Shown: in pieces, positions 1-32,030 of the stretch
Numbering within the stretch: the first letter of the stretch is position 1
Layout: each line of letters opens with the position of its first letter
NCBI GenBank assembly: GCA_029226955.1
Contig: JAQXZA010000062.1
Location: 1-34,015, forward strand
Direction of reading: 5' to 3'
Source of the DNA: Clostridia bacterium
GTDB lineage: Bacteria > Bacillota > Clostridia > Oscillospirales > Acutalibacteraceae
DNA length: 34,015 nt
Translations under genes and position numbers: made by a program
Notes under the pieces: generated by a model
The model's database searches: none
What the model saw: the letters and a program-made list of their open reading frames with translations, nothing else
Told to the model about the DNA's origin: nothing

Positions 1-1
1 T

Positions 2-2413
2 GGAAAGAAAATTGATTATTATTTAAAACGCACAGTCGATGAGGACAGTGACCGCATTTCAACCTACGCTACCGAAAGAGGAAGTGTGCCGGAAGGTGTT
101 GACGATTTTGCAGTTGTTGTTATCGCAAACAAGAACGATACCGAAACTACAAATCTGATAAACCGCTATATCCAACTCGTGACAAATACCACTACGGATT
201 ACACAGAATCAAGCGAATACTACAATATAGCTGTAAGCACTTGTAAATACAGCAACGGTAAATTTGCGATAGACAGCAGTTTAACTCCTGGTTTAAAATG
301 GAAAAACGGCACATTTGCATTGAATGGCGAAAATGCTGATTCAAAGACTACAAATACTTTTACTCTTGTTGATGTGCAGTTCAAAGATCCGCTACATACA
401 GACACGATTGCTTATCATCTGTATGTTCCTGTATATACAATCAAGCAGATGGAAGTAGGTTTCTATACATCTGTAAAGACAGGAACAAAATCAGTTTCAT
501 ACAAAACAGATGGCACAGTTTATTCTGATTATTCAGACCTGACTGATTCCGGTAAACGTGCCCACATTGACAGTCTTGAAACCTGGATTACACAATATGT
601 ACGTTTCACTTATAATGTTGATGATATTAACATACTTCTTAACAAAGGTAATGTTAAGTGGAATCATAATAAATATTTAAACTTTGACACTCAGTCAGCC
701 GGCGGTGATACAGAAGTAAGGCTTCCGGAAAGTACATTTATGGTGCTTGTTGACCCTAACGGAAACTCTGACAAGGAGTATTATGCAAATGTAAGTGATT
801 TTGATGGTTATATTAACTCGAAAGGAAAAGAGAGCTGGACGATAGATTTTACAAAATTCAAACGTGGTGAAAATAGTTACTTTAAAGAACAGACACTTAA
901 TGATATTATCGCACGAAATATCAATGTGACTGAAAATACAACAGGACAAGGTTTATACACTGACGGAACTGCCGAAGATTATAATGTTTACAGGATAGAT
1001 GAAAATGGCATAATACATTACTATAAATATTCTGCTGACGGCAATGGAAACTATGATTTGTCAGTAAATGAAGATGTAAACGAAGATTACTACATCAGTA
1101 TGTATGTCCCGAAAGAAGAAAGCTATAATAACGAGCTTTACTATTATTCTATATTCGCACCTGATGAGCTTACAGGTATTAAGTCAGCAAAAGTTAATCA
1201 AAATAATACTTATAGTGTTCTTGTAGCAGATCTCTATACCCAGAACACAACAAACAGAATGACTGTATCTCCTGATGATCAGCAAATCAGTGCCTCAAAC
1301 AAGACGATAACTGTAAAGGCATCAACATCTATCAGTATCAATAATTCTTGGGCAACATTGCACCTTGGAGGTACGACGCTATATCATTCTTTCAATCTCT
1401 CGTTGAACCGTTATACTGAATCAGGAGTAACAAGTGAAATTATCGGATTGAAACCGGATTCTATAACAGCAACATACAATATAGGAGCCGAAGCAGATGA
1501 AAATAGCACTGTTGTCAATAACAAAGATCTGCAAAGCAATTATTTGAACATTGAAACCACTGAAATTATGCAACAGCTTATCAAGGCTTTTGAAAACAAT
1601 TCTCCTCTGGAAATATATGCCTATATTGAAATGGATTTTGATGAAAACCAACTTGAAAATGAATTTCCACAGAAAAATTCAGAGTCAAACATAGGTGTAA
1701 ACGTTGCAGCTACATCAAACCTTGCGTATGACTCCGAAAGATTGGCTTATACGAGTATGTCAAAGGCATTTGACGCTGACAATCACTATTATTACCGTGA
1801 ATCTGTAAATTCCGCTATTCTCTATTATTCTGCTGTGAATGAGCTTGATGAATATGAAACCTACGGAAAGGATAGTCAGAATCAATCAAGATTAGGCATA
1901 AACGGATATTGTTATGATGAATCAACGCTAATGCCTATCAATACCCAAGCAAAATATAATGTTTCTGCTATCTCATCGGAAGATTTAAAACTTGCTAAAT
2001 CCTTACAACTAACGATAACGTTAAGTAAAAAAACGGATAGAAAAGCGGCAGATGGAAAAATTCTCAGTGTGGAATATGTACCGATAGAAAATCTGCTCTC
2101 GTATTTGGATAAGGATATGACAATAACGTCAGGAACAAAATATTCAAGGACACATTCAATTACACAATCGGCTGATTCGCTGACAGTTAATATTCCTATC
2201 GGCAGTTGTGATGTTGAATCTGATATTTATAATATCGGTATAGGTTTCAAAGCAAAAACAGGCGTTGGCTTTACCGAATATGCAAATTACAGGATTACAT
2301 TGAGAGCCGAATTGTTAAAGGAAAATGGAACGGCTATTGAAAACAGCAGTATAAGTGACTACATTGTTTATACCAATGCCAAAGTTTATCCTACGGTCTT
2401 TACTAACAATTAA
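2..2413 (+). CDS. Large secreted surface protein of unknown family, 5' partial
   Basis: The frame is open from base 2 with no start before it, so the gene begins upstream of the window; the in-frame GTG at 86 has no ribosome binding site and is probably internal. About 803 residues are visible. They are rich in Asn, Tyr, Thr and Ser, have few Cys, no membrane segment and no obvious coiled coil, which fits an extracellular beta-rich protein. No LPXTG motif or C-terminal anchor is present; the protein ends in KVYPTVFTNN. I do not recognise a domain. The next gene encodes a SipW-dependent fibre protein, so this may be another substrate or partner of the same surface system, but the missing N-terminus hides any SipW-type signal peptide. 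The reading frame is certain; the function is unknown. Confidence 0.8.
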   Translation, partial: GKKIDYYLKRTVDEDSDRISTYATERGSVPEGVDDFAVVVIANKNDTETTNLINRYIQLVTNTTTDYTESSEYYNIAVSTCKYSNGKFAIDSSLTPGLKWKNGTFALNGENADSKTTNTFTLVDVQFKDPLHTDTIAYHLYVPVYTIKQMEVGFYTSVKTGTKSVSYKTDGTVYSDYSDLTDSGKRAHIDSLETWITQYVRFTYNVDDINILLNKGNVKWNHNKYLNFDTQSAGGDTEVRLPESTFMVLVDPNGNSDKEYYANVSDFDGYINSKGKESWTIDFTKFKRGENSYFKEQTLNDIIARNINVTENTTGQGLYTDGTAEDYNVYRIDENGIIHYYKYSADGNGNYDLSVNEDVNEDYYISMYVPKEESYNNELYYYSIFAPDELTGIKSAKVNQNNTYSVLVADLYTQNTTNRMTVSPDDQQISASNKTITVKASTSISINNSWATLHLGGTTLYHSFNLSLNRYTESGVTSEIIGLKPDSITATYNIGAEADENSTVVNNKDLQSNYLNIETTEIMQQLIKAFENNSPLEIYAYIEMDFDENQLENEFPQKNSESNIGVNVAATSNLAYDSERLAYTSMSKAFDADNHYYYRESVNSAILYYSAVNELDEYETYGKDSQNQSRLGINGYCYDESTLMPINTQAKYNVSAISSEDLKLAKSLQLTITLSKKTDRKAADGKILSVEYVPIENLLSYLDKDMTITSGTKYSRTHSITQSADSLTVNIPIGSCDVESDIYNIGIGFKAKTGVGFTEYANYRITLRAELLKENGTAIENSSISDYIVYTNAKVYPTVFTNN

Positions 2414-2435
2414 CCGTAAAACCGCATATTTTGAG

Positions 2436-2466
2436 AGCCACTGTATGTAAAAATACAGTGGCTTTT
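2436..2466 (+). terminator. Rho-independent terminator after the large secreted protein
   Basis: A perfect 11-bp stem (2436-2446 with 2453-2463) encloses a 6-nt loop and is followed by a short T-run. It lies 23 bases after the stop of the preceding gene and separates it from the TasA-like gene, which has its own promoter. Confidence 0.85.
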
Positions 2467-2527
2467 GCAATATGAACAAAAAATATTTACAAAAATTATA
2501 TATATATACAATAATTAACAGAAAATC

Positions 2528-2556
2528 TTGACGAATGGTGTTTAATGCGGTATAAT
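2528..2556 (+). promoter_or_regulatory. Sigma-A promoter of the TasA-like gene
   Basis: TTGACG (2528-2533) and a perfect TATAAT (2551-2556) are separated by 17 bases. Transcription would start near 2563, giving a leader of about 54 nt that ends with GAGGAG at 2601-2606 and the ATG at 2617. The near-consensus boxes fit a strongly expressed structural protein. Confidence 0.85.
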
Positions 2557-2616
2557 CTTAACATAAATTAATATTGTTGTTTTTAAATAAAAAACAAAAA
2601 GAGGAGTGATTAAATT

Positions 2617-3735
2617 ATGGCAGAAAAAAAGAAAAAAGCATCAGCAAAGAAGAAACTTATTCCGGCTGTTGCAATGCTTGCGACATCAGCCGTTATGCTT
2701 TCATCTGCTACATACGCATGGTTTACATTAAATAAAGATGTTGAAGTTAAAGGCTTACAGATGGCAGCTACTGCCGGCGACTCATTGGAAATTACACTTG
2801 GTAAACTTGATAAGACAACAACTGACGGTTCAAAAAATGGTGGTACTCCTGATAATACAACTTTTGGTTCAGTTGGAGATTTAGGCTGGGACAGAACAGA
2901 AGCTATTGACAGTTATTATAAAACCATTGCCAAACTTAAACCTGCATCATCTGATACTGCTTTAAGTATCTATACGGTTGAAGAAGGAAAGGTATATGCC
3001 GGTGGTCAGGCAGTTAATGGTGAGGCAAAGGTTACAACTGCTACAACAACTGAAATGGCGAACATAGAATTAGATACTACATATGGTACTGCAAATCTTA
3101 ATACTGGCGACAGTGGAGAAGGTTACTATGTTGATATTCCTATGTGGATTCGTTCAAGTAATTTAGAGGCAAGAGATGTTAAAGCGTGGGTACAGATTAC
3201 TGACCCGACAGCTACTGCTGACGAGAAAAATGGTTCAGATTTGATAAATGCAGTAAGAGTTGCACTTATTCCTGTTGCAAGTACACAAGATTTGTCAACA
3301 GTAGGAACAGGTTTGGATTATACTAAAACTGCAGAATGGACTGTTGATGGTGTTGCCACTGATAGTAAAGCTACTATTTTTGGCTTGACAGAGGATACCT
3401 ATAATAGTAAGGTTCTTAATGCTGGTGGTGAGAGTGCTACTTATTCTAATTCTACTGGATCTTCACAAGACATAAAACAAGCTGCAAGCACATTTAAGGG
3501 CAATGCAAGCGAACCTACTAAATTTGTACCTAAATATGGTGAGGGTGCAAGTGCAACAGATGTTCCAGGTGTTTCAATCTTTAAAATGCCAGCAGCAACA
3601 AATGACAAATATGCGGCTGTTCTTGTAGTTGCAAGAATATGGATTGAGGGCGAAAGCACATATTGTAACGACGCAACAGCTAATCAGGACTGGAATATTG
3701 ACTTCCACTTTGAGCTTGCTGATGCTACTACCTGA
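2617..3735 (+). CDS. TasA-like secreted fibre protein with SipW-dependent signal peptide
   Basis: The N-terminus has a Lys-rich n-region (residues 2-13), a hydrophobic stretch (14-31) and the motif ATYAWFTLNKDVEV. This is the hallmark of precursors cut by SipW-type signal peptidases in the TasA/CalY (camelysin) group, with cleavage expected after Ala34. The mature part of about 338 residues is acidic, Thr- and Ala-rich, contains no Cys before a single one near the C-terminus, and looks beta-rich. At 372 residues it is longer than typical TasA (about 260). It has its own promoter and terminators on both sides, so it is monocistronic. Two SipW-like peptidases are encoded downstream. A role as a biofilm or surface fibre subunit is inferred from the signal type and context, not from a fold match over the mature region. 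Confidence 0.8.
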   Translation: MAEKKKKASAKKKLIPAVAMLATSAVMLSSATYAWFTLNKDVEVKGLQMAATAGDSLEITLGKLDKTTTDGSKNGGTPDNTTFGSVGDLGWDRTEAIDSYYKTIAKLKPASSDTALSIYTVEEGKVYAGGQAVNGEAKVTTATTTEMANIELDTTYGTANLNTGDSGEGYYVDIPMWIRSSNLEARDVKAWVQITDPTATADEKNGSDLINAVRVALIPVASTQDLSTVGTGLDYTKTAEWTVDGVATDSKATIFGLTEDTYNSKVLNAGGESATYSNSTGSSQDIKQAASTFKGNASEPTKFVPKYGEGASATDVPGVSIFKMPAATNDKYAAVLVVARIWIEGESTYCNDATANQDWNIDFHFELADATT

Positions 3736-3774
3736 TTTAACTAACCCCTACCCCACAAACTAAAAAATAACTTA

Positions 3775-3806
3775 AATCCCCGATACAAAAATGTATCGGG
3801 GATTGT
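3775..3806 (+). terminator. Strong terminator after the TasA-like gene
   Basis: A perfect 13-bp GC-containing stem (3775-3787 with 3792-3804) closes on an AAAA tetraloop. The downstream T-run is short, but stem strength and position 40 bases after the stop support termination. Confidence 0.8.
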
Positions 3807-3835
3807 TACTAATACGACATATTTGTCAAAATTAC

Positions 3836-3864
3836 TTGACCGTTGTCGGAATATATAGTATAAT
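3836..3864 (+). promoter_or_regulatory. Sigma-A promoter of the eight-gene SipW/AAA operon
   Basis: TTGACC (3836-3841), a 17-base spacer and a perfect TATAAT (3859-3864). The predicted start near 3871 leaves a leader of under 30 nt before the GTG at 3899, with AAGGAA at about 3882-3887 as ribosome binding site. No terminator is seen until 11396, so this promoter probably serves all eight genes. Confidence 0.85.
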
Positions 3865-3898
3865 TGGTACATAAGACTTGAAAGGAACGTGCTGATAC

Positions 3899-4681
3899 GT
3901 GTACGACACTCAGGAAAACAACATACAGACTACTGTTGACGGTGTGAGAGCCATTGAGCTTTTTTACCGACCTATTAAAGAAACAGCCGGTAACGAAACT
4001 GTCTTCTTTCAGTCACAGATGAGATTTAATGCTCCCGATATGGGTGTCCTTATGCCGTCAAGATATGCGGCAGTCTTTGAGGCAAGTCCGAAAAGTGTAA
4101 AAATATTTGAACTTGTTTTCAGACAATTTCTGAAAGCTCTGTCGAAATTTTCCGAGCGTGGTGTTCAGTATGACTGGATTTCCTTATGTATGCCCGTAAG
4201 ATACCTGAAAAGAATCGGTTGTTCGGTTTTTTTGTCGAATTTGTGCAAAAAAAATCTTATCCGCCCTGAACGTATATGCTTTGAAATTTCACCAATCGTT
4301 CTTGATGAAACAGACGGCAAGGCGGCTGAAACAATAAAGGAACTGACAAATCTTGGTTTTCACGTTATGATTACGGGAATAGGCGGTAGTTGCCCTGTTC
4401 TTAAATTAGGGAAGTTTAACGCTGATTATGTTATGCTTGATCCACAGGCGGCTGTTATTTCGGCTGATGATGAGAGAAGTTTAACCTGTCTGAAAGCTGT
4501 TTTGAACCTTTGTGATGAACTGAGGGCAAACCCTATTGTCTGTGATATTTCCGATAAATCTCAGCTTAAAACGCTGAAAGAACTTGAATGTTCCTATTAT
4601 ACGGGTAAACTTTCGGGTACATTTATGGCGGAAAAGTATGTTCGTTCAAGAAATGCTGACGACGAAAAGTCGGACGGCTGA
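3899..4681 (+). CDS. Degenerate EAL-domain protein, predicted c-di-GMP sensor without phosphodiesterase activity
   Basis: The 260-residue protein follows the order of an EAL domain along its whole length, but the catalytic signatures have been replaced. FYRPI (22-26) matches the opening of EAL domains. The EAL tripeptide position reads SQM (39-41). LMPSRYAAVFE matches the usual PGEFIPLAE stretch. CFEIS (127-131) keeps one Glu of the LEITE motif. The DDFG metal site reads TGIGG (159-163). IVCDISDKSQL and YYTGKLSG match the final EGVE and QGYYF blocks. Loss of the EAL and DD residues predicts no c-di-GMP hydrolysis, as in EAL-type receptors such as LapD or FimX. It is the first gene of the operon, starting with GTG. 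Whether it still binds c-di-GMP cannot be decided from sequence alone. Confidence 0.7.
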   Translation: MYDTQENNIQTTVDGVRAIELFYRPIKETAGNETVFFQSQMRFNAPDMGVLMPSRYAAVFEASPKSVKIFELVFRQFLKALSKFSERGVQYDWISLCMPVRYLKRIGCSVFLSNLCKKNLIRPERICFEISPIVLDETDGKAAETIKELTNLGFHVMITGIGGSCPVLKLGKFNADYVMLDPQAAVISADDERSLTCLKAVLNLCDELRANPIVCDISDKSQLKTLKELECSYYTGKLSGTFMAEKYVRSRNADDEKSDG

Positions 4682-4713
4682 TAAAATAAATTCTTATATG
4701 TGGAGGTGCAAAA

Positions 4714-5607
4714 TTGGCTGAATCTGAAGTTTTGACACCCGAAAAAGAAAAAGATACTTCTCATAATTCTTCGGAAACCCAAAAGCCTGAAAACGATAAA
4801 CCTCAAAAAGATCCTGACAAGAAAAAAAAGAAGTCAAAGAAAAAGTCAAAAAAACAGTCGGTTGAAGAAGTTAATATTCAGCCTGAAACCGAAAACGGAA
4901 AAGATGCCGCCACTGTTCTTACACTCCGCAGACGTGCCGGAGAAGTAAAAAAATATGCTGTTATGCGACGTCTGGCGGCTGTTCTTGCGGTTATACTGAT
5001 AGCAATTATTACGGTTGTGTATGCCGTTTCATATTTCTATGATCAATACGGCAGTTTTACCGTAAAGATTGATAAATATGATATGGTACAGCAAGGTTTA
5101 AGCCTTTCGGAAACTCCCGAATTTGACAGAACGACTTCCCGACTTAATGCAAATATTGTCTATGATATGACTAATATAAGCGGCGAGGATCTTCCGGCTA
5201 ATATTGACAGAGTTAATGGCAGTCACAATGGTGACAACTATATTGCCTATACTTTTTATCTTACAAATTCAGGTAAGGATACGCTTACATATTCAGGTGA
5301 GCTTTATATGGAGAGTATAACAGGTAATGTTGATGAGGCTATACGTGTTGCCGTTTACAGAAACGGTGAAAAAACCGTTTACGGCAAAACCAAGTCAAAC
5401 GGCGGCGGAATTGAAAAGGATTGCGACAAGGAATTTGCCTCCGCAAGAGTAATTTCTGAGGAAAAGCACGAAAAATTCCGTCCGGGTCAACAGGATAAAT
5501 ATACAATCGTTATATGGCTTGAAGGAAACGACCCTGACTGCACCGACGAAATAGTCGGCGGTCAGATGAAAATGGGTTTGAATTTTAAGATCATAGAAGA
5601 TACATAA
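4714..5607 (+). CDS. Membrane-anchored TasA/camelysin-like protein
   Basis: The start is TTG at 4714, placed 7 bases after GGAGG (4702-4706). Residues 1-82 are a hydrophilic cytoplasmic tail with a Lys-rich block (36-47). One membrane helix spans about 87-108. The outer part (110-297) has blocks typical of TasA-type beta-sandwich proteins: YTFYLTNSGKDTLTYSG, IRVAVYRNGE, YTIVIWLEGNDPDCTDEIVGGQ and a final MGLNFKI. The helix is not followed by an SPase motif like that of the fibre gene at 2617, and the long cytoplasmic tail suggests a permanently anchored type II protein. It could act as a fibre anchor or assembly platform. Lys-rich tails may contact the cytoplasmic EAL or AAA proteins encoded beside it; that is inference. 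Confidence 0.65.
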   Translation: MAESEVLTPEKEKDTSHNSSETQKPENDKPQKDPDKKKKKSKKKSKKQSVEEVNIQPETENGKDAATVLTLRRRAGEVKKYAVMRRLAAVLAVILIAIITVVYAVSYFYDQYGSFTVKIDKYDMVQQGLSLSETPEFDRTTSRLNANIVYDMTNISGEDLPANIDRVNGSHNGDNYIAYTFYLTNSGKDTLTYSGELYMESITGNVDEAIRVAVYRNGEKTVYGKTKSNGGGIEKDCDKEFASARVISEEKHEKFRPGQQDKYTIVIWLEGNDPDCTDEIVGGQMKMGLNFKIIEDT

Positions 5608-5633
5608 AATTCGTAGCACGATAGGAGAATATT

Positions 5634-6401
5634 ATGAAGAAGGTTATCAAGATAATTTTTAATGTATTTGCGTGGGTTGTGCTGATTTTTGCACTGCTTA
5701 TAACGCTTTTGGTGTTTACGGCAGACAGAAACGGCGGAACGGCAAGCCTGTTCGGATTTATTCCTATGACAGTAGAGTCTGACTCAATGAAACCGACATT
5801 TGCTAAAAACGACCTTATTATATGCCGTGAGATAGACGACATAGGAAATCTTCAAAAGGGCGATGTAATTACATACTGGACTATTATTGACGGTCAGAAA
5901 GTCAGAAATACTCACCGTATTGTCGAGATAAACGAAGTCAACGGCAATAAAAATTTCGTGACACGAGGCGACAATAACAACCGTGAAGATGACATTTCCG
6001 TATATAGTGCCGACATTATCGGTCAGTGGACGGGTATGAAAATAAACGGATTCGGTCAGGTAATGGATTTTCTGAGGTCACAGACAGGATTCTTTATATG
6101 TATTCTTCTTCCGATAGCACTGTTCTTCCTCTTTGAACTGTACAAGCTGATTGTTGTTATTATTGAAATCAGACGTCCGAAACTCACATCAGAGGACGAG
6201 GAAGAAATTAAGAAAAAAGCAATCGAGGAATACCTTGCAGAACAGAAAAAACTCAATAAGAATGAAGAAAATGTTTCTTCATCTTCTGAGAAAAGCACTG
6301 ATACAAAAGAAAGCACAGACACAAAGGAAAACACTGATGTAAAAGAAAGCACAGAAACAAAAGAAAGCACTGATGTCAAAGAAAAAGCTGAAACGAAGTA
6401 A
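5634..6401 (+). CDS. sipW: Signal peptidase I, SipW (ER-like) type
   Basis: An N-terminal membrane helix (about 6-28) leads into the catalytic domain. The nucleophile is Ser51 in VESDSMKPTF. The general base is His94 in NTHRIV, in the position where bacterial P-type enzymes carry Lys, which marks the ER/SipW type. Asp113 lies in TRGDNN. A second helix spans about 153-178. The C-terminus (184-255) is a charged cytoplasmic tail ending in six to seven imperfect copies of a six-residue unit (STDTKE, NTDVKE, STETKE and similar), which is unusual for the family. The start has GGAG at about 5623-5626. It lies 26 bases after the TasA-like gene and directly before the AAA gene. Known SipW enzymes process TasA-like precursors, so the protein at 2617 is the likely substrate. 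Confidence 0.88.
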   Translation: MKKVIKIIFNVFAWVVLIFALLITLLVFTADRNGGTASLFGFIPMTVESDSMKPTFAKNDLIICREIDDIGNLQKGDVITYWTIIDGQKVRNTHRIVEINEVNGNKNFVTRGDNNNREDDISVYSADIIGQWTGMKINGFGQVMDFLRSQTGFFICILLPIALFFLFELYKLIVVIIEIRRPKLTSEDEEEIKKKAIEEYLAEQKKLNKNEENVSSSSEKSTDTKESTDTKENTDVKESTETKESTDVKEKAETK

Positions 6402-6413
6402 GTGAGTTTAATT

Positions 6414-7997
6414 ATGGGTGATTTTTTTCAATGGTTTTTTGCATTTATCACCGAGATTCTCGGCGGCTTTGCAAAAATCTTTATCGGACTATGGGACGGC
6501 TTAAAACAAATATTCAATATATCCGCATATATTGATATTTTCAAACAGTATTCCGAAAATTTCGGAATACTTGGTTGGGTGCTGTCTATTATTGCAATAT
6601 TAGTGGTAATTGCCGTATTCGGATTGCTTATCTTTATAATCGTTCTTATGATAAGAAAATATATCCGTTTCCGTCATTCCATTGTCAGCAACGAGGATCT
6701 TCTGGAAGAAATAGCAGACCTTCAACGTAAGGTTCTGAAAATGACAAAGGAAAAAGACGAAATTATGGCAATGAAAGTGGCACAGATGGGCTTGCCTGTC
6801 GGAACTTCGCCTGTTCTTGCCGGTGCAGAGGGTTACAGCGGTGTCGGCGAAAAGGCAGAACAGAAACCCGAAAGCGAAATGGCTGTTGTTGACGCTGACG
6901 GTATCGTTCAGACAACCGACTGCCGTTTCTCAAAACTTATTGAGGTTGATAATTTCTATAAGAATTACACACCGCCTGTATATGACAACGAGATAAATCT
7001 CCGTCAGCTTTGCGAGAATTACAGAAACTTTGCCTGTTCAAGAATGCACCTTTACTATGACATAAAAACCATAAGGCTTTTCCTTGCGGGTATGGCGTCA
7101 ACAAAGCTGATTATATTACAGGGTATTTCCGGTACAGGTAAAACATCACTGCCGTACTCATTCGGTAAGTTTATGCAGAAAGATACAACAATCGCATCAG
7201 TTCAGCCGTCGTGGCGTGACAGAACCGAGCTTTTCGGATTTTTCAATGAATTTACAAAGAACTTTAACGAAACCGAAGTGCTGAAACGTATATATGCGTC
7301 AAGCTATAATAACGACATAAACTTTATTCTTCTTGACGAAATGAACATTGCACGTGTCGAGTATTACTTTGCAGAAATGCTGTCAATTCTTGAAATGCCT
7401 AATGCAGATGAATGGAAACTTGACCTTGTGCCTAATGTATGGAGTACAGACCCTGTACATCTTGACCGTGGCAAGCTGTGTATTCCGCAGAATATATGGT
7501 ATATCGGTACAGCAAATAACGACGACTCGACTTTTGCAATATCTGATAAGGTTTATGACCGTGCACAGCCTATCAACCTTGATTCTAAGGGCGTAGCATT
7601 TGACGCACCTGATACACCGCCTATGAATCTCGGCTTTGACCATCTTGATGAACTGTTCAAAAAGGCATTTGACGAGTACCCGATTTCTCAGGAAAATCTC
7701 AGAAAGATACAACATCTTGATTTGTGGGTAATTGAAAAGCTGAGAGTTGCATTCGGTAACCGTATTATTAAACAGATGAATTTGTTTGTTCCTGTTTATG
7801 TTGCCTGTGGCGGCGAGGAACTTGACGGTATTGACTATGTACTTGCCACAAAGATTTTCAGAAAGTTTGAATCTCTTAACCTTGCTATGCTCCGTGACGA
7901 GCTGAAAGAACTTTGTATATATCTTCAAAAGCTGTTCGGCAAGAACAGTATGAAAGAATCTATTGCATATCTTGAAAGATTGCAGAAACTGTATTAA
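6414..7997 (+). CDS. Membrane-anchored McrB-like AAA+ NTPase
   Basis: I chose ATG 6414 over the in-frame GTG at 6402, because 6402 abuts the previous stop and leaves no room for a ribosome binding site (527 residues). The N-terminus has an amphipathic or membrane segment (about 3-27) and a clear helix (53-80), then a short coiled coil (94-120). The AAA+ module (about 195-480) has Walker A GISGTGKTS (237-245), the McrB-like WRDRTELFG (267-275), Walker B FILLDEMN (304-311) followed by IARVEYYFAEML, and sensor 1 GTANNDD (365-371). DEMN-x-ARVEYYF is typical of the McrB/5-methylcytosine-restriction NTPase family, which may use GTP. McrB itself is soluble and has an N-terminal DNA-binding domain; here that is replaced by membrane helices. 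The next gene resembles its usual DUF2357/McrC-like partner. Confidence 0.8.
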   Translation: MGDFFQWFFAFITEILGGFAKIFIGLWDGLKQIFNISAYIDIFKQYSENFGILGWVLSIIAILVVIAVFGLLIFIIVLMIRKYIRFRHSIVSNEDLLEEIADLQRKVLKMTKEKDEIMAMKVAQMGLPVGTSPVLAGAEGYSGVGEKAEQKPESEMAVVDADGIVQTTDCRFSKLIEVDNFYKNYTPPVYDNEINLRQLCENYRNFACSRMHLYYDIKTIRLFLAGMASTKLIILQGISGTGKTSLPYSFGKFMQKDTTIASVQPSWRDRTELFGFFNEFTKNFNETEVLKRIYASSYNNDINFILLDEMNIARVEYYFAEMLSILEMPNADEWKLDLVPNVWSTDPVHLDRGKLCIPQNIWYIGTANNDDSTFAISDKVYDRAQPINLDSKGVAFDAPDTPPMNLGFDHLDELFKKAFDEYPISQENLRKIQHLDLWVIEKLRVAFGNRIIKQMNLFVPVYVACGGEELDGIDYVLATKIFRKFESLNLAMLRDELKELCIYLQKLFGKNSMKESIAYLERLQKLY

Positions 7998-8054
7998 CAA
8001 ATAACAGCAGACAAGCATTAAGCGGCTTGTTTATCCTGTGGAAAGGGAAGAACT

Positions 8055-10001
8055 ATGAGCGATTCATACAGCCGTTGGTATAACGGATTCAGCGAAATGA
8101 TGGGTACGTTTGACAGCGATGAACTGTATGAGTCGCTTTATTCTCTTATACTCTCAGGAAATAATGCCTTTTCACTCAATAATAAGGTAATGGAAAAGGC
8201 AGTTGACATTTCGTGGGTAGAAGCTATTGAAAACGGACTTGTTCACCTTGATAATGTTATACGCAGTCCGAGAATGACTATTGAAGACGTGGAAAGTATC
8301 GTGCCTATTGCCCTCTCACGTAAAATTACGGTCGAGTCTGTAAAACATCTTGCACAGCACACTAATCTCATACAGGATTATGACGCAAAAACAGGAAAGG
8401 TGACTCCCTCAAAGGTACTCAACGTTTACAAAGAAGAAAGTATGATGACATACGAGAATAAGTTTGTCAATACATTGGTTGATAAACTTTACGTATTCAT
8501 AAACAGACGTTATGATAAACTTAAAGAAGTCAGAAATGACGAGGCTGTATCAACGCTTGAATATACATCTCAGATAGGCGAATCGGGCAGTAAAATGAAT
8601 ATAAGTCTGAAACTTGAAGCGATTGACAGCCTTGAAACAGTTGATGAAAGCGGTGCTACCACTTGGGACAGAATACAGAAAATCAAGGAAACCATTGAAA
8701 GCTACAAAGGCTCACAATTCTGTATGAAGATGGGCAGTGCCTATATCCGTCCACCTGTTATGCGAACAAATGCCATTATGAAAAATGTTGACCTTAAAGC
8801 CTGTCTGACATTATGGCAATTTATTGAAAGCTATGACAAGGTGGGTTATGAACTGACTGTGTCCGATACCGCACAAAAACCTGATGAATCCTATATGCAG
8901 GATATGTATAATCTTGTTGCACTCGGATTTATGCTTATGCGTTTCCATTCCGACAGGGATAACAGTGCAGAAGACCTCAAAACAAAAAAGAATAAACCTG
9001 TTTCCCCGAGAATTATAAGAAAATTTGATAAAACAAGTCAGGACGATTATGATATGCCTGTCGGTGTAAACTCTGAGGAAAGAGAACCTAACGAGTATTC
9101 GCCGTCAAAACTTTTCCCGAGGGACGCAAACGAGATTTTAAGTCAGTTTGATAAAATCATTGAAACAGAACAACTCTATATGGAGGCGGAAGAACGCAAG
9201 CGTATGGAGGAAGAGCGTATCGAGGAGGAGAAACTTCGTCGTATTCAGGAGGAAGAACGCAAACGTCAGGAACAGGAGCGTCTTGCCGCTATTCAGGCGG
9301 AAAAGGAACGTCTGGAACGGGAGCAGCGTGAACGTGAGGAACAAGAGCGTCAACTCCAGGAAATGCTGGAAAAACAAAAGAGAGAACAGGAAGAAAGAGA
9401 ACGTCAGGAAAGAGAAGAAGCCGAAAGACGAGAGAAAGAACGTCTGGAAAGAGAGCGGCTCAGAGCTGAGGCTGAGGCAAGAATGGCGGCTGAGGAACAG
9501 GAAGAAATACGCAGGGCTGCTGAGAAACTTGCAAGAAAAGAAAAAGAAAGACAGGAGAGAGAGGCAGAAGAGCATCGTAAACGCATTGAGGCAGAAAAAG
9601 CAGAACGTCTTGAACGTGAAAAGGCAGAGCGTGAAAGAGCTATCCGACTCAGGAGAGATCGTCAGTTTATCGAACAGAAACCGTTTGAGCAGATTTATCT
9701 TGAATATTCCAATAATATCTTTGTCATTATCAAGCGTAATTTAATAAAACAATTAAAGAAAAATGGCTTGATAAAGGAAAAACCGCTTACAGAAGTAGAG
9801 CGTGGTATTAAGGAAATTGAGGAACGCTGTCAGAAATACTATGAAGAAGAACAGGAACAGCTCCGCCGTGAACGTTCGGAAAAGAGAGCTGTTGCAAACA
9901 AGTATGACAGATATTCCAGCAGTTCGCTTAAACATTTACGCATAAAATTCCGTAATCTTGCTGACAAATGGGATAACAGACATTCACGGAAGAAGAAATA
10001 A
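8055..10001 (+). CDS. DUF2357/McrC-like protein with long charged coiled coil
   Basis: Residues 1-300 show blocks resembling DUF2357 proteins that accompany McrB-like ATPases: YENKFVNTLVDKLYVFINRRY (about 133-153, split here by a gap in conservation) and the YIRPPVMRTNAIMK region (230-243). Residues about 366-537 are an uninterrupted Glu/Arg/Lys/Gln-rich helix, predicted as a coiled coil of about 170 residues. A basic helical tail (540-648) follows. I see no PD-(D/E)XK nuclease motif, which DUF2357 partners of restriction systems normally carry. Ribosome binding site GGAAAGGGAAG lies just before ATG 8055, 57 bases after the AAA gene. The likely role is a structural or regulatory partner of the membrane AAA protein. 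The DUF2357 link is by eye and moderate; the coiled coil is certain. Confidence 0.6.
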   Translation: MSDSYSRWYNGFSEMMGTFDSDELYESLYSLILSGNNAFSLNNKVMEKAVDISWVEAIENGLVHLDNVIRSPRMTIEDVESIVPIALSRKITVESVKHLAQHTNLIQDYDAKTGKVTPSKVLNVYKEESMMTYENKFVNTLVDKLYVFINRRYDKLKEVRNDEAVSTLEYTSQIGESGSKMNISLKLEAIDSLETVDESGATTWDRIQKIKETIESYKGSQFCMKMGSAYIRPPVMRTNAIMKNVDLKACLTLWQFIESYDKVGYELTVSDTAQKPDESYMQDMYNLVALGFMLMRFHSDRDNSAEDLKTKKNKPVSPRIIRKFDKTSQDDYDMPVGVNSEEREPNEYSPSKLFPRDANEILSQFDKIIETEQLYMEAEERKRMEEERIEEEKLRRIQEEERKRQEQERLAAIQAEKERLEREQREREEQERQLQEMLEKQKREQEERERQEREEAERREKERLERERLRAEAEARMAAEEQEEIRRAAEKLARKEKERQEREAEEHRKRIEAEKAERLEREKAERERAIRLRRDRQFIEQKPFEQIYLEYSNNIFVIIKRNLIKQLKKNGLIKEKPLTEVERGIKEIEERCQKYYEEEQEQLRRERSEKRAVANKYDRYSSSSLKHLRIKFRNLADKWDNRHSRKKK

Positions 10002-10002
10002 T

Positions 10003-10665
10003 ATGAAAATCAAAAAAGGTCTTTTGAAAAAAATTCTGACTATTGCCTGTAATGTTTTTCTTGGCATTTGCGTAATATTTACCGTTTATGTTATGATAAG
10101 CAGTATGAACGGTAAAGTTGTGGACATTTTCGGAAAAAGTGTTCTCAGGGTTGTATCGGGTAGTATGGAGCCATCTCTTTATGAAGGAGATTATATTCTT
10201 GTTGAGAAAATTCCCTGTGAACAGCTTGAAAAAGGCGATATTATTACATTTTATTCCACAGATAAATCCATTTACGGTATGCCGAACACTCATAGAATAA
10301 TAGGTATCAATAATGACGGCAGTTTTGTCACAAAGGGCGACGCAAACATAAATGCAGATGAAGAAGTCGTTACTCAGGACAAAGTTATCGGAAAGTATTG
10401 CGGAAAAATACGGTTTCTGAGGTGGCTTGGTTCGTTTACATCTTTAAAAAAACTTATACTGCTTGGTGTTATCATTCTTATACTGATTATGGCTGTATAT
10501 GAGTTAAGGACTATTATTAAAGTCAGCAGAATGTCCGAAGATGAGAAGAAAACAATATATGACAAGAAAAAAGAAAAACTTATCAGAGAGGCTATCGAAA
10601 AGGAAAAACAGCGGCTTTATGATGAAAATTATAACGAACAGGACGAGGGGGGCGAAAAAGATTGA
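10003..10665 (+). CDS. Second SipW-type signal peptidase I
   Basis: The start is ATG 10003, preceded by GGAAGAAG; the longer in-frame start at 9958 lies inside the previous gene. Residues 9-32 form the N-terminal helix. The catalytic Ser54 is in VVSGSMEPSLYEGDYILV, His97 is in NTHRIIGI (Ser/His type), and Asp113 is in TKGDAN. A second helix (about 149-167) is followed by a charged, helical cytoplasmic tail ending in DEGGEKD. It is only about as similar to the peptidase at 5634 as family members usually are, so this is not a recent duplication. It starts one base after the stop of the coiled-coil gene and overlaps the following small gene, so it is co-translated with them. A second peptidase suggests a second substrate class or a dedicated maturation step. 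Confidence 0.85.
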   Translation: MKIKKGLLKKILTIACNVFLGICVIFTVYVMISSMNGKVVDIFGKSVLRVVSGSMEPSLYEGDYILVEKIPCEQLEKGDIITFYSTDKSIYGMPNTHRIIGINNDGSFVTKGDANINADEEVVTQDKVIGKYCGKIRFLRWLGSFTSLKKLILLGVIILILIMAVYELRTIIKVSRMSEDEKKTIYDKKKEKLIREAIEKEKQRLYDENYNEQDEGGEKD

Positions 10666-11117
10666 ATCAGGAAAAAATAATGAAAGTCAAAATGATAATA
10701 GCTATCGTCTTGAGTATTCTTTCAGTAGTGGCTATGTGTGTTTTTATTGCGTTGTATTTTGACGAAAAGGCGAATGTTCAACGCACTTACAGGGAAAAGT
10801 ATATGGAAAATCTTACATACGCCTGTGAGGAAATAGACACATATTTTGAAACTGAAAGAGATATTGAACTTCATTATAATATGATTCTTTCAGATGTAGG
10901 TGCCGCCAGAAATATGGTTTTTCTCATTGATGATTACAGTGAGGAAAAGCAGAAAACAATGAATACATTTCATTACTGCCTTGTGAAATACCCTGAGCAG
11001 ATGAAAGAAAAACTCAAAGAATCACGGACAGCAATGGACGACATAACCGCAAATCTTGATAAGGGCTATGATGAACTCAAAAAAATAACAGATTCCATTG
11101 ACAAACTTGGTACTTGA
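10662..11117 (+). CDS. Small single-pass membrane protein, unknown
   Basis: TTG 10662 overlaps the stop of the signal peptidase gene (TTGA arrangement) and follows a GGGGGG block at about 10647-10652, so translation is probably coupled. ATG 10680 is an alternative start. The protein has one membrane helix (about residues 10-32) and then about 115 residues of mostly helical, charged sequence with three Cys. The C-terminal end (LKESRTAMDDITANLDKGYD region) looks like a coiled coil. I recognise no family. Position at the end of the operon suggests an accessory component of the SipW/AAA system. Confidence 0.65.
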   Translation: MNQEKIMKVKMIIAIVLSILSVVAMCVFIALYFDEKANVQRTYREKYMENLTYACEEIDTYFETERDIELHYNMILSDVGAARNMVFLIDDYSEEKQKTMNTFHYCLVKYPEQMKEKLKESRTAMDDITANLDKGYDELKKITDSIDKLGT

Positions 11118-11135
11118 CGGAAAGAGTGATGTTAT

Positions 11136-11360
11136 ATGTTTGAAAAGCGAAAAATCAAAAAAGAGATAAAAAAATGTCAGAAAACTATTGAACAGATAGA
11201 AAAAAAGAGGGCTCGTTCACAGGCGGCTCTTGTTCAGGCGGTTCTTCTTCAGGAAAAGACAAATGATGCTGACGTTGAATGGTTCAATAAATATACAGGT
11301 GAAATTACTGCCTGTCGTAACCGTATGCTTGAACTGAAAGACAAGCTGAAAAAATTATAA
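11136..11360 (+). CDS. Small helical coiled-coil protein, unknown
   Basis: This 74-residue basic protein is almost entirely predicted helix, with Lys/Glu heptad-like patterning (residues 3-36 and 56-74). It has no membrane segment or signal. The ribosome binding site GGAAAGAG lies about 9 bases before ATG 11136, and the gene follows the small membrane protein by 18 bases, ending just before the operon terminator. It may bind the coiled-coil partners encoded upstream, which is inference from position only. Confidence 0.6.
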   Translation: MFEKRKIKKEIKKCQKTIEQIEKKRARSQAALVQAVLLQEKTNDADVEWFNKYTGEITACRNRMLELKDKLKKL

Positions 11361-11395
11361 TTCAGAAACAGTCGGAATATTACAGATTTATTCAG

Positions 11396-11435
11396 GGACA
11401 GAGAGAAAAATTTTCATTATCTCTTTGTCCTTTTT
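11396..11435 (+). terminator. Terminator of the SipW/AAA operon
   Basis: An 11-bp stem (11396-11406 with 11420-11430, one G-U pair) is followed by TTTTT at 11431-11435. It defines the right end of the eight-gene operon. Confidence 0.85.
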
Positions 11436-11438
11436 GTA

Positions 11439-11458
11439 ATGTACAGAATGTTGTACAT
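11439..11458. promoter_or_regulatory. Palindromic operator candidate before the MBL gene
   Basis: ATGTACA (11439-11445) and TGTACAT (11452-11458) form a perfect 7-bp dyad with a 6-base centre. The right half covers the -35 box of the promoter at 11451-11479, so a dimeric repressor bound here would block RNA polymerase. The cognate regulator is not recognisable in the window. Confidence 0.55.
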
Positions 11459-11479
11459 CTGTTTATGTTATGATATAAT
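11451..11479 (+). promoter_or_regulatory. Promoter of the MBL/DUF3006 operon
   Basis: TTGTAC (11451-11456), 17-base spacer, TATAAT (11474-11479). The predicted start near 11486 leaves a leader of about 45 nt ending in GAGGTG at 11520-11525. Confidence 0.7.
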
Positions 11480-11531
11480 AACGGTGCGATAAATTTTATC
11501 GGACAAGTTATAATTAAATGAGGTGTTTTTG

Positions 11532-12449
11532 TTGAAATTAAAAAGTATTATGGCATTTATTGTTACAGCGATTATGGCATTTTCGCTGTGCGGCTGTGCG
11601 GAACTTCAAAGATTTATTGACGAGGATTTAAGCGGTTCTGAAAATTCACTGACAGAAAGCACAAACAGTACAGACGGCAACCATAAAGCTGAAAAAGGCA
11701 AACTTGTGAGTCATTATATTGATGTCGGACAGGGCGACAGTGAATTTATTGAACTTCCTGACGGCACAACAATGCTTATTGACGCAGGTACGGCGGATTA
11801 TGGCGAAACAGTGGTTAATTATATCAAGAATTTAGGATATTCAAAAATCGACTATCTTGTCGGAACACACCCTCACGCAGACCATATAGGCGGTATGCAA
11901 AAGGTTGTCAAGTCATTTGATATAGGCAGTGTTTATATGCCAAAGGCAAGCACCAATACCAAAACATACGAAAATCTTCTTAAAGAAATAAAAAACAAGG
12001 GCTTAAAAATAAAAACCGCAAAAGCCGGTGTTTCTGTAATTTCTGATAATGATTTAAAAGTCGATATTCTTGCACCGAACAGCAGTAAATATGATGAAAT
12101 TAATAACTATTCGGCAGTAATTAAAATTACATATAAGAATAATAAATTTCTTTATATGGGCGACGCTGAAAAGCTGAGTGAAGATGAAATAAAGGCAGAT
12201 GTTTCAGCAGATGTAATAAAAATCGGACATCACGGCAGTACATCGTCATCATCAAAGAATTTCGTCAAAAAAGTCAAGCCACAATATGCCGTTATCTGTG
12301 TCGGCAAGGATAATACGTACGGACACCCGAAAGATTCAATCATAAAACGCTGGAAAGATATTGGTGCAAATATATTGCGTACCGACAAGAACGGCAGTAT
12401 TACTATAACATCTGATGGCAGTGATATTTCAGTAAGTACCGAAAAATAA
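11532..12449 (+). CDS. Extracellular ComEC/Rec2-like metallo-beta-lactamase lipoprotein
   Basis: TTG 11532 follows GAGGTG by 6 bases and gives 305 residues; TTG 11529 and GTG 11523 are in frame, but 11523 sits inside the ribosome binding site. The N-terminus is a lipoprotein signal (about 1-21) with lipobox L-C-G-C and lipidated Cys22. After a Ser/Thr-rich linker, the MBL fold begins with YIDVGQGDSEFIELPDG, as in ComEC C-terminal domains. The metal motif THPHADHIGG carries His113, His115, Asp117 and His118. YMGDAE and KIGHHGS supply the later ligands. It should be a cell-surface hydrolase, probably nuclease- or phosphodiesterase-like given the ComEC resemblance; the substrate is not shown. 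The following DUF3006 gene is a common companion. Confidence 0.85.
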   Translation: MKLKSIMAFIVTAIMAFSLCGCAELQRFIDEDLSGSENSLTESTNSTDGNHKAEKGKLVSHYIDVGQGDSEFIELPDGTTMLIDAGTADYGETVVNYIKNLGYSKIDYLVGTHPHADHIGGMQKVVKSFDIGSVYMPKASTNTKTYENLLKEIKNKGLKIKTAKAGVSVISDNDLKVDILAPNSSKYDEINNYSAVIKITYKNNKFLYMGDAEKLSEDEIKADVSADVIKIGHHGSTSSSSKNFVKKVKPQYAVICVGKDNTYGHPKDSIIKRWKDIGANILRTDKNGSITITSDGSDISVSTEK

Positions 12450-12461
12450 GAGGTGAGTATA

Positions 12462-12659
12462 GTGCGAGTTATAATTGACCGATTTGAAGGGGAATATGCC
12501 GTTGTTGAAACGGACGACGGAAATTTTGTCAATCTTCCGAAAATACTTGTTCCCGACGCACACGAGGGAGATGTTGTTGACATCATCATAAATCGTGAAG
12601 AAACAGAAAAACGCAGTGAGAATATACAAAATCTTATGAATGACCTTTTTGAAGACTGA
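12462..12659 (+). CDS. DUF3006 family small protein
   Basis: GTG 12462 lies 9 bases after AAGAGG (12447-12452); GTG 12453 would touch that site and is rejected. The 65-residue protein begins RVIIDRFEGEYAVVETDDG and contains VPDAHEGDVVDI, both typical of DUF3006, a small beta-barrel-like family often encoded beside ComEC-like MBL proteins. No signal or membrane segment. Its biochemical role is unknown. Co-transcribed with the MBL gene; a terminator follows immediately. Confidence 0.8.
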   Translation: MRVIIDRFEGEYAVVETDDGNFVNLPKILVPDAHEGDVVDIIINREETEKRSENIQNLMNDLFED

Positions 12660-13731: not shown

Positions 13732-13758
13732 GACTTTTTATTTGTGTATGATTATAAT
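13730..13758 (+). promoter_or_regulatory. Promoter of the toxin-antitoxin operon
   Basis: TTGACT (13730-13735), 17-base spacer, TATAAT (13753-13758); GGAGG lies at 13776-13780 before ATG 13789. Confidence 0.8.
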
Positions 13759-13788
13759 ATAATTATAATGATATTGGAGGTCAGAAAA

Positions 13789-14094
13789 ATGAAAAATGTT
13801 GTTTCAGCACCGAAAACAGATATGTTCCGTTTAAGAATAAATCCTGAAATTCGTTCTGAAATTGAAGAAATTTACGCAAAAAACGGACTTACACTTACTC
13901 AGGCGATAAATATATTTATTCAGCAGTCCATAAATGTCGGAGGACTGCCGTTCAGTGTTACAGAGGATAATGCCGAATATATAAAGGCTCAGTCAATGAA
14001 AAGGTTAATGCAAGAGCTTGAATACGGCAAAAATTCGGGAGAACTTATTGACGAATCTGAGGTATATAAAATGCTTGGGGTAAATGAAGAATGA
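13789..14094 (+). CDS. RelB/DinJ-family antitoxin
   Basis: The start at ATG 13789 has GGAGG 8 bases upstream; the longer in-frame start at 13744 lies within the promoter and is rejected. The 101-residue protein has the ribbon-helix-helix signature MFRLRINPEIRSEIEEIYAKNGLTLTQAINIFI split over residues 9-41, typical of RelB/DinJ antitoxins. The acidic C-terminal half would bind and neutralise the toxin. The stop overlaps the toxin start (ATGA), so the two are translationally coupled. Confidence 0.88.
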   Translation: MKNVVSAPKTDMFRLRINPEIRSEIEEIYAKNGLTLTQAINIFIQQSINVGGLPFSVTEDNAEYIKAQSMKRLMQELEYGKNSGELIDESEVYKMLGVNEE

Positions 14095-14399
14095 AAATAT
14101 ACTACCGTCCTGCCGCAATAGAGGACATAAAAAACGTGTCCGACTATCTGGAAAACGTTTTGAAAAATCCTGTTGCGGCACAAAAACTGAAAAGAAAAAT
14201 TCTTAACGGTATCTCACTGTTAAAGGAAAATCCTGAAATGGGTGTACTGTTAAAAAATAAATATGAAGAAGTTGATTCAGATTATCGTTTTATCACAATC
14301 AACAAACATTTGGTGTTCTATGAAATCAACGACGATACAATAGAAATTGTCCGCATAATAGACGGGCGGACGGATTATATGACAAATCTTTTTCAATAA
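14091..14399 (+). CDS. RelE/ParE-superfamily toxin
   Basis: A 102-residue basic protein with the RelE/ParE layout: MKIYYRPAAIEDIKNVSDYL, two helices (about 10-50), then a beta-sheet with YRFITINKHLVFYEINDD and IEIVRIIDGRTDY. IDGR-x-DY is common in ParE/RelE toxins of this clade. Members either cleave ribosome-bound mRNA (RelE) or inhibit gyrase (ParE); the sequence does not settle which. It overlaps the antitoxin gene by 4 bases and is followed by a terminator. Confidence 0.87.
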   Translation: MKIYYRPAAIEDIKNVSDYLENVLKNPVAAQKLKRKILNGISLLKENPEMGVLLKNKYEEVDSDYRFITINKHLVFYEINDDTIEIVRIIDGRTDYMTNLFQ

Positions 14400-17256: not shown

Positions 17257-18219
17257 TTACCGCTGTATTTCGTTTTTGAAGTACAGCGGTATTTTTTGGA
17301 AAAGAATTACATTTTCCTGTTGCAATTTCCGTTTATAGTAAATATTCAATTGATTTCTTTTTTGGCAAAGAGCAATATCACCATTTACTTGGGTATAGCT
17401 TTTTTCTCTGTTCTTTCTACTAGTAACGAATTTGATTCCTTTCTCCTTTAGAAAATATTTTGTATCAACATAATCTTCTAAAAAATCGTACATTCGATAC
17501 TCTAATTCAATTGGTGCAGGAAATTTAAACTGAGTTTTTTGCCTAAATCCTAAACAATATAGTCGCTCTCTGTTTTGAGGAATTCCATAATCCTTGCTAT
17601 TCAATACTTGAAAATGTACATCATATCCAAGTTCTTTAAAAATGTCGTAAATTATGTGCCAAGTGCGACCACCATCATGATTTAATAAACCTTTTACATT
17701 TTCAAAAAGAAATATTTTAGGTTGTGTCTCTTTTACTATTCGTGCAAATTCATAAAAAAGAGTTCCACGGGCATCTTCAAAACCTAGTCTTTTACCAACC
17801 ATAGAAAAAGCTTGACAAGGAGCTCCGCCAACTAAAAAATCTACTTTTCCTTTATATTTAGTAGCATTAAATTCCCTAATGTCATTAAACCAATCCTTTT
17901 CATCAATCTCATAGTTGGCAAAATAACTTTTTTTACAATTGGCATCTATGTCACAAGCAAATACAATTTTATGTTTTAATTTTAATCTTTGAAAAGCGTG
18001 TTCTATGGCACCAATTCCACTAAAAACAGTTCCTAATCGAACTGTATTATTTGGACAAGAAAATTGTTTGTCTTTCCATACATCTGTAGAAATTTCTTCT
18101 GGAACAATTTCTGAATTGTCGATAACAGAGGAACGCTCTTTTATGATTTTTTTAACCATATTAATTTTATCTGATTCTTCGTGGATGCTTTTTTCCACTT
18201 CTGTCATTTTTTTTTGCAT
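17257..18219 (-). pseudogene. Orphan cytosine-5 DNA methyltransferase, C-terminally truncated
   Basis: ATG 18219 follows AAAGGT on the minus strand and gives 320 residues; the longer frame to 18291 lacks a ribosome binding site. The Dcm-type motifs appear in order: I, RLGTVFSGIGAIEHAF (from 61); IV, GGAPCQAFS with catalytic Cys135; VI, FENVKG (173); VIII, PQNRERLYCLGF (from 214). The target-recognition region starts (YTQVNGDIALCQKRNQ, 275-290) and then changes abruptly into a 30-residue tail encoded by AT-rich sequence and the neighbouring gene's terminator. Motifs IX and X, needed for folding and target recognition, are absent. Full family members are usually 330-420 residues. No restriction endonuclease is adjacent. 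The gene is far more AT-rich than its neighbours. It is probably an inactive remnant of acquired DNA; a split-enzyme role is less likely. Confidence 0.75.
17258..17297 (+). terminator. Terminator of the acyl-CoA synthetase, inside the methyltransferase 3' end
   Basis: A perfect 10-bp stem (17258-17267 with 17282-17291) is followed by TTTTTT (17292-17297). It lies 60 bases after the synthetase stop. The minus-strand methyltransferase reading frame runs through it and stops at 17257-17259, so part of that protein's C-terminus is encoded by terminator sequence. Confidence 0.8.
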
Positions 18220-18517
18220 AATGTGACCTTTCTGTAATAAATTAAAGTAAAATGTATTTAGATTTTGTTTATATAAATGATAGAATGACATTTAAATTCT
18301 TATTTATATATTTAGTGGAGAATATTTGTGTAAAAGTTATTTTATTAATAAAATATTTATTTGAGTTTAGACTTCTAAATTATAAACTTTGCAACACTAT
18401 ATTACTCTTTTAGCATAACATATTTTATTGTTTAAATCAACGATTATTACAGATTTACAAAAGGAAAATATTGAAACGATAATAGATTCATTCTCAATTT
18501 TAATACTATTCTTACGG
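18220..18517. other. AT-rich gene-free stretch upstream of the methyltransferase and riboswitch
   Basis: About 300 bases between the divergent methyltransferase start and the riboswitch promoter. The composition is strikingly AT-rich, like the methyltransferase itself. I see no convincing open frame, hairpin or repeat. The methyltransferase promoter must lie at its left end, but no box pair stands out. Confidence 0.5.
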
Positions 18518-25799: not shown

Positions 25800-25838
25800 T
25801 ACGATCACGTCCTGTCGGTGTTTTTTTATTATTTTACT

Positions 25839-31700: not shown

Positions 31701-32030
31701 CATAAATAAACAAAATATCCAAAAAATATAAAAAAACTCTTGAAAAACCGTATTATTTATGTTACAATTATCAAAAGTTCAAAAATGGGCATTATATTTC
31801 AAAGAAATTCAGGAAGGAGGAACATTAAGGGCAGAGCAGTCCTCTGGTTGCAGTGTAAACATTCACAGCGGAACACCATAACGGTTAGGGGAAGATTTCT
31901 TAATCGGCTCAATGCACAATGTGCATATAAAACAGTCAAACATACATCTTGCCGCAGATGTGCGTAACGGTAGGCTGTATTATAAAACATTCGCACAAAA
32001 AACAATAAACTATAAAAGGTGGTTAAAATC
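31701..32030 (+). promoter_or_regulatory. Long structured leader of the backbone pilin gene
   Basis: About 260 transcribed bases precede the pilin ATG. They contain an AGGAAGGAGG block (31811-31820) with no ATG or GTG at useful distance, a small hairpin ATGCAC-AAT-GTGCAT (31912-31926), and a two-part hairpin (31932-31978) pairing ACAGTC with GGCTGT and ACATCT with AGATGT. A frame running through it to a stop at 31967 is probably not a gene. It may be a regulatory RNA leader of a class I cannot name. Confidence 0.5.
31740..31768 (+). promoter_or_regulatory. Promoter of the pilin-sortase operon
   Basis: TTGAAA (31740-31745), 17-base spacer, TACAAT (31763-31768). No terminator is visible between the adhesin stop (31700) and this promoter, so some read-through from the adhesin is possible. 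Confidence 0.65.

Follow-up and report, generated by a model that had tools for sequence, protein, structure and literature searches.

What would a pair of proteins related to the restriction components McrB and McrC be doing between two signal peptidases, close to a gene for a TasA-like surface protein? The question is raised by a stretch of DNA of 34,015 nucleotides from a Clostridia bacterium (the window, as it is called here), which forms the start of contig C62 in a genome of 2.6 Mb and carries a set of genes on the forward strand that we designate B, C, D, E, F, G, H, I and J (2617-11360). The set lies downstream of an open reading frame of 775 residues (86-2413), upstream of which no stop codon closes the frame before the contig begins. 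The pair itself is formed by F and G.

The AAA+ protein F (6414..7997, forward strand) is a membrane-anchored, McrB-like NTPase of the NxD type, for which a GTG at 6402 is a possible start and the ATG at 6414 is the one favoured by its relatives. The McrB-type motifs that had been read in this protein at the outset are upheld by a comparison of 20 homologues (at least 51% identical to the window), in which little or no variation is seen in GISGTGKT, LDEMN and the NxD-type motif (read as GTANNDDST in the window), RVEYYF is nearly invariant, and the N and the D of NxD are invariant in all 20 rows. At E ≤ 0.01, the profile made from these homologues matched three McrB sequences of the PDB, the best of them at 6e-7, and no other entry, and the search with the single sequence gave an McrB match at 0.003. 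The first-pass annotation had also assigned N-terminal membrane helices to this protein, and this was retained in part: with residues numbered from 6402, hydrophobicity peaks at 63-81 (mean 3.61), and a second, weaker hydrophobic stretch covers residues 12-30 (1.78), which suggests a single clear membrane helix, with a second in doubt, rather than several. The stretch at 63-81 falls inside a helix predicted at residues 56-129 (structure model, low confidence overall). Family scans matched no DNA-recognition family in the N-terminal part of F, where residues 1-130 look membrane-bound or helical and residues 130-180 are variable and unmodelled.

The partner G (8055..10001, forward strand) combines DUF2357, the N-terminal domain of McrC, with a coiled coil of approximately 190 residues. 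A Pfam scan of the whole protein matched no family; the scan of the N-terminal 195 residues found DUF2357 at 33.6 bits and that of 370 residues at 31.9 bits (cut-off 23.3), and a search with the Pfam DUF2357 model over 60 genomes found it at the same place in this protein with 32.4 bits. The comparison of G with eight McrC-like control partners by hhalign gave a probability of 96.6 (E 6.8e-10, 101 columns), and the resemblance to DUF2357/McrC-like proteins that had been suspected is thus confirmed. The coiled-coil region (residues 356-545) is 32% Glu and 21% Arg, and it is modelled as long helices. Four of the eight controls, taken from the class of weak F matches defined below, were scanned, and all four contain both DUF2357 (217-238 bits) and PDDEXK_7 (148-160 bits), while in a fifth control, the partner encoded at locus L120, the DUF2357 match stays below the threshold at 16.6 bits and PDDEXK_7 is not found. 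The profile scan detected neither a nuclease nor PDDEXK_7 in the G of the window, with the reservation that a profile could miss a strongly diverged nuclease, and it detected no PDDEXK_7 in the relatives of G from L027 (first 336 residues only), L104, L117, L106 and L112. The original description of G as a protein with a coiled coil and no PD-(D/E)XK nuclease therefore stands; the structure model, in which a confident nuclease fold at the C-terminus would have spoken against it, yielded no useful fold match and for that reason is a weak test of the C-terminal fold.

On both sides of the pair there is a signal peptidase, as was first described, and both are of the SipW type by profile: E (5634..6401, forward strand), with two transmembrane helices, and H (10003..10665, forward strand), which begins one base past the stop codon of G. 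Against the Bacillus SipW equivalog model, SigPepSipWBacil, E and H score 113 and 91.9 bits, under the cut-off of 190, and against sigpep_I_arch they score 90.3 and 89.6 bits, over the cut-off of 51.85. The reading frames of G and H are distinct in the window, with a single base between them; in 35 of 88 G reading frames (35 of the 73 found among loci L024-L103) the frame of G continues into that of the second peptidase, SipW2, and some of the other 53 end at contig edges. The active site of the fused SipW2 conforms to a strict pattern in 29 of the 35 cases and to a looser one (GSM, THR, GD) in all 35. A tree of 65 F proteins, of which 35 come from fused and 30 from separate loci (row L105 sits on a very long branch), requires six changes between the fused and the separate state, at least two of them forced by the starred branches. 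The fusion also occurs within the genus of the window (L266, L267 and L290), where L266 is probably the same record as L102 and would already be among the 35; as L252 and L095 are related in the same way, the locus sets overlap somewhat.

The remaining members of the set are B, C, D, I and J. B (2617..3735, forward strand) encodes a TasA-like secreted subunit with a SipW-type signal region (SSATYA-WFT); it matched no Pfam family and no PDB sequence, and its likeness to TasA is suggested by the type of signal and by the gene context. D (4714..5607, forward strand) has an N-terminal tail, a transmembrane helix at residues 87-105 and an outer domain. The family of this outer domain aligns to that of the TasA-like subunits, in the C-terminal part of the latter (probability 97.7, E 1.8e-12, 120 columns), so D is a membrane-anchored protein with a domain in common with TasA-like subunits. 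C (3899..4681, forward strand; Pfam EAL, 94.6 bits) departs from the window's own EAL domain at the Glu of the EAL motif and at the DD and Lys positions, which agrees with the earlier view of a dead EAL protein; we take these positions to be catalytic residues. The distant EAL protein of locus L112 keeps the DD and not the Glu, and C is perhaps a c-di-GMP sensor with no enzyme activity. The set is completed by I (10662..11117, forward strand), a small protein with one transmembrane helix, and by J (11136..11360, forward strand), a charged protein of 74 residues that was absent from the initial gene list.

The notion that all these genes form one operon, the TasA-like gene included, has to be qualified. 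The genes share a strand and recur as a set, but B has its own promoter-like site (2528-2556, 11 of 12 consensus positions matched) and is separated from C by a hairpin of 13 pairs (3775..3804), with a terminator-like score on the reverse strand, and by a second promoter-like site before C on the forward strand (3836..3864, TTGACC-17-TATAAT, 11 of 12), which is a consensus match only. Given these two sites and the hairpin between them, B may be expressed apart from C-J and may lie on another transcript than the pair; single sites are little proof of this, since 64 such sites were found in positions 1-12500 where 38.4 were expected.

How widely the set is conserved was evaluated in GTDB r220 contigs, where 156 stretches with relatives of F were found and the best 80 of the 156 (L024-L103) were used. 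These 80 loci belong mostly to Ruminococcus, Oscillospiraceae and other Clostridia, including strains of Ruminococcus bicirculans, R. albus and R. flavefaciens. Counting only matches with 60% cover or more, C occurs at 72 of the 80 loci, D at 74, E at 78, G at 75, I and J at 66 each and B at 12; genes counted as absent include losses at contig ends, and H was left out of the count because E cross-matches it. B diverges fast, and in several of the 80 loci the TasA-like match lies on the opposite strand. The median identities are 77.6% for F (a value inflated by the selection of the loci through F), 71.6% for J, 64.8% for D, 59.8% for E, 55.2% for the N-terminal part of G, 46.7% for I, 37.9% for C and 33.0% for B, and J is 59% identical over 64 residues to its counterpart in a locus of the same family.

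The specificity of this association is best appreciated by comparing strong matches to the F profile (at least 550 bits) with weak ones (below 200 bits) and with a middle class between them. Strong matches occur in 6 of 64 genomes of the genus, 24 of 295 of the order, 12 of 341 of the class and 1 of 348 of the phylum (own genome included), and the other 48 matching genomes of the phylum score at most 128.5 bits. F is 77-79% identical to the window in Ruminococcus strains and 51-59% in the strong matches of the same family, with one partial match at 67%; horizontal transfer was considered in view of the closer identity in Ruminococcus and of the 6 genomes of 64 in the genus. The flanks were compared at 48 strong loci (47 genomes), 9 middle loci and 23 weak loci, the last being the 20 best-scoring of the 48 phylum genomes and three loci of the family; outside the 48 there are further strong matches, namely the window itself, partial matches in G122, G247 and G696:C2, and three more loci of the genus, of which one shows a G-SipW2 fusion and the other two a SipW-type gene.

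All 48 strong loci contain a SipW-type gene on the strand of F within 8 kb, 36 also have a TasA-type signal peptide there and 32 have at least two SipW-type genes; the N-terminal transmembrane helix and NxD are present in 48/48 and G in 46/48. The profiles were built in part from 16 of these loci (L104-L119), and among the other 32 the figures are 32/32 for SipW and 22/32 for the TasA-type signal. The EAL count in this comparison, 25, takes gene C together with EAL proteins of greater length. At the weak loci, the N-terminal helix was found in 1 of 23 and neither SipW-type genes nor TasA-type signals in any of them (0/23 for each), and the nine middle loci lack both as well (0/9 for each). Fisher values for these counts were set aside, since they take no account of how closely the loci are related. 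A G-like partner accompanies F in 8 of the 23 weak loci, and a defence-type make-up was seen in the few that were scanned; transglutaminase-core proteins adjoin two of the middle-class relatives. The two kinds can coexist in one genome, G110, which has a strong locus with SipW (L110) and a second McrB-like locus without it (L120), and in eight sister loci the NTPase is present and SipW is absent. In the reverse direction, a SipW-like match is found in 106 of the 295 genomes of the order and reaches at least 100 bits in 23, of which 22 have a strong F; the remaining two genomes with a strong F (G074 and G478) have a lower-scoring SipW match on the same contig. The exception, G492, has two SipW-type genes and D-like pieces with neither F nor G, so that SipW-type processing as such is independent of F. 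Taken together, these observations make it very probable that the pair is linked to the SipW/TasA-type pathway, and the close relatives of the pair, at the loci compared, do not prove to lie mostly in defence islands apart from SipW and TasA genes, the outcome that had been named as contrary to the idea.

The protein families, the membrane anchor, the lack of a detected nuclease, the conserved gene set and the fusion were computed directly, and the reading of them that we favour, and consider somewhat probable, is that F and G constitute an NTPase complex derived from McrBC, held at the membrane and lacking a nuclease, which takes part in both the processing and the assembly of a TasA-like fibre. 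F would form a ring at the inner face of the membrane, anchored through its N-terminal helix, and the DUF2357 domain of G would dock on this ring and switch it on, as McrC does for McrB, thereby putting the energy of the NTPase to use. The coiled coil of G would position the second SipW-type peptidase, to which G is covalently joined in some species. As for the order of events, TasA-like pre-subunits would leave Sec and would then be trimmed by the SipW-type peptidases, which would free the N-terminal strand, the one that joins TasA subunits in Bacillus. If a fibre is made at all, D would be its base, by analogy with TapA of Bacillus, and C would report or feed in c-di-GMP. The recruitment of a restriction-type NTPase pair for the export or assembly of fibres, as first suggested, thus gains from the McrB/McrC kinship, the anchor and the SipW- and TasA-type neighbours, and the export or assembly step is what we infer. 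The more specific proposal, of a type that we did not find described, is that this nuclease-less complex powers or times both the processing and the donor-strand assembly of TasA-type fibres in Clostridia through the joining of a McrC relative to a peptidase, and it is made tentatively.

The main rival is a switch or scaffold: nucleotide and c-di-GMP would act as signals to which F and G respond by gating SipW activity or marking the site of export, with no mechanical work on subunits. The fusion of G to SipW2, which binds the pair to the peptidase, and the presence of a degenerate EAL gene within the set are consistent with such a role, as is the precedent of McrB, whose activity is raised by its McrC partner (PMC11090510). 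The conservation of the NTPase motifs in the 20 homologues fits sustained turnover, although a switch would keep these motifs too, and we regard this role as possible and rather doubtful. A further proposal is that the pair is an old McrBC remnant carried along in the fibre operon by gene order, with no function of its own. G492, which retains the peptidases and not the pair, can be read in this way; the conserved motifs of F, the presence of G next to F at 46 of the 48 strong loci and the repeated fusion or fission of G and SipW2 make it most improbable.

It has also to be considered that F and G could be an antiviral system embedded in the fibre operon, for instance one whose response is to remodel the surface. 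The kinship with McrBC speaks for it, and so do the match of F to the PADLOC candidate family PDC-M26A (2.4e-38), the match of a flanking protein of L027 to PDC-M03A (65.9 bits; one of ten flanking proteins scanned at five sampled loci) and the interpretation of the CoCoNuT relatives as defence systems (PMC11090510). Against this, no nuclease was detected in G, SipW accompanies 48/48 strong and 0/23 weak loci, and the other two PADLOC-matching proteins among the ten sampled, a pyridine-nucleotide oxidoreductase and a radical-SAM protein, look generic. A defence role is unlikely. If the assembly reading is correct, a restriction-type machine has been converted into an envelope machine, and an energy-using version of TasA-type fibres exists in gut and rumen bacteria.

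Among known systems, AAA+ proteins linked to the envelope are found in the MoxR operons, together with membrane proteins of transglutaminase core, and differ from the locus described here in both AAA+ family and partners. To our knowledge, no NTPase pair belongs to the tapA-sipW-tasA operon of Bacillus, and we know of no NTPase for Bacillus TasA-type fibres. Compared with tapA-sipW-tasA of Bacillus subtilis (PMC9674648; PMC10269814), the window differs in having two signal peptidases, a degenerate EAL protein and a further two small proteins. In Bacillus, TasA is described as assembling through its N-terminal donor strand after cleavage by SipW, and TapA as anchoring and nucleating TasA (PMC9674648). 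Type IV restriction systems of the McrBC/CoCoNuT kind share with the window the McrB-like AAA+ protein and the DUF2357 partner in adjacent genes, and differ in that here no nuclease or DNA-recognition domain was detected, a membrane anchor is present and the context is one of surface-protein genes; in McrBC it is the DUF2357 of McrC that stimulates McrB (PMC11090510).

The first-pass annotation had known of no described system with this composition, which no longer holds, since Bell et al. (2024, eLife; PMC11090510) devote a few sentences to this class and give it the name CoCoPALM. As outlined there, CoCoPALM comprises an NxD McrB-type NTPase with an N-terminal transmembrane/coiled-coil region, a McrC homologue with a coiled coil and neighbours of the signal-peptidase family, called 'likely pilus assembly factors' (PMC11090510); all of these features are the same here. 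The N-terminal region is given as FtsB-like (PMC11090510), and the helix at 63-81 within the predicted helix 56-129 matches it by layout. Neither 'TasA' nor 'SipW' occurs in the main text of that paper, and in its sentences on the class no TasA, SipW, EAL protein, anchored subunit, peptidase fusion or absence of a nuclease is named (PMC11090510). A full-text literature search, with most subscription journals outside its coverage, found the gene set studied only in that paper and its preprint, and no experiment on export or assembly of fibres by the pair. All the CoCoPALM features that were checked are present in the window, and by its sequence the locus is a member of this named and uncharacterised kind. 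Beyond what the sentences on the class in that paper (PMC11090510) offer, the present analysis contributes the TasA-type partner, the absence of a detected nuclease, the fusion of G to SipW2, the relation between D and B and the comparison set, and CoCoPALM thereby gains a concrete partner pathway, a physical link to it and a comparison that shows this link to be specific.

The degenerate EAL gene (C) of the TasA-like set lies about 15 kb from a gene on the reverse strand of the window (20049-22127) that encodes a response regulator containing both a GGDEF and an EAL domain, and it was against this regulator that the residues of the degenerate protein were judged. Loci L105, L233, L234, L235, L237, L238, L240, L255, L256 and L262 share a recurring protein of 729-796 residues, which scores 45-55 bits against the EAL profile and is a possible second link to c-di-GMP.

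The window also carries, on the forward strand, a RelB/ParE-type toxin-antitoxin pair (13744-14399) and a surface system different from the TasA-like set (26178-33692). The latter includes an 1840-residue protein that contains SpaA and related domains, as well as a pilin-like one that carries an LPXTG anchor. A C-5 cytosine DNA methylase (17257-18291) and a 620-residue protein without any Pfam match at E<=0.01 (23946-25808) are encoded on the reverse strand.

At locus L288 (3694-6536), pieces resembling the TasA-related one-helix protein D accompany two SipW-type signal peptidase genes, with neither the McrB-like NTPase F nor its DUF2357 partner G alongside; this is a natural example of a locus without the F-G pair.

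Loci L248, L249, L250 and L263 present a sister arrangement, in which a DUF2357-type protein lies between two F-like NTPases bearing transmembrane segments; L247 shares it, with a single F found. SipW is absent from these five loci as examined. Giant membrane proteins with a transglutaminase core occur close to the F-like NTPases at L249 and L263. SipW is likewise absent at L121, where a weak-class AAA+ protein (F-profile match below 200 bits) of 454 residues (7648-9009, reverse strand) has its own N-terminal hydrophobic helix and neighbours that we take to resemble mraZ and mraW.
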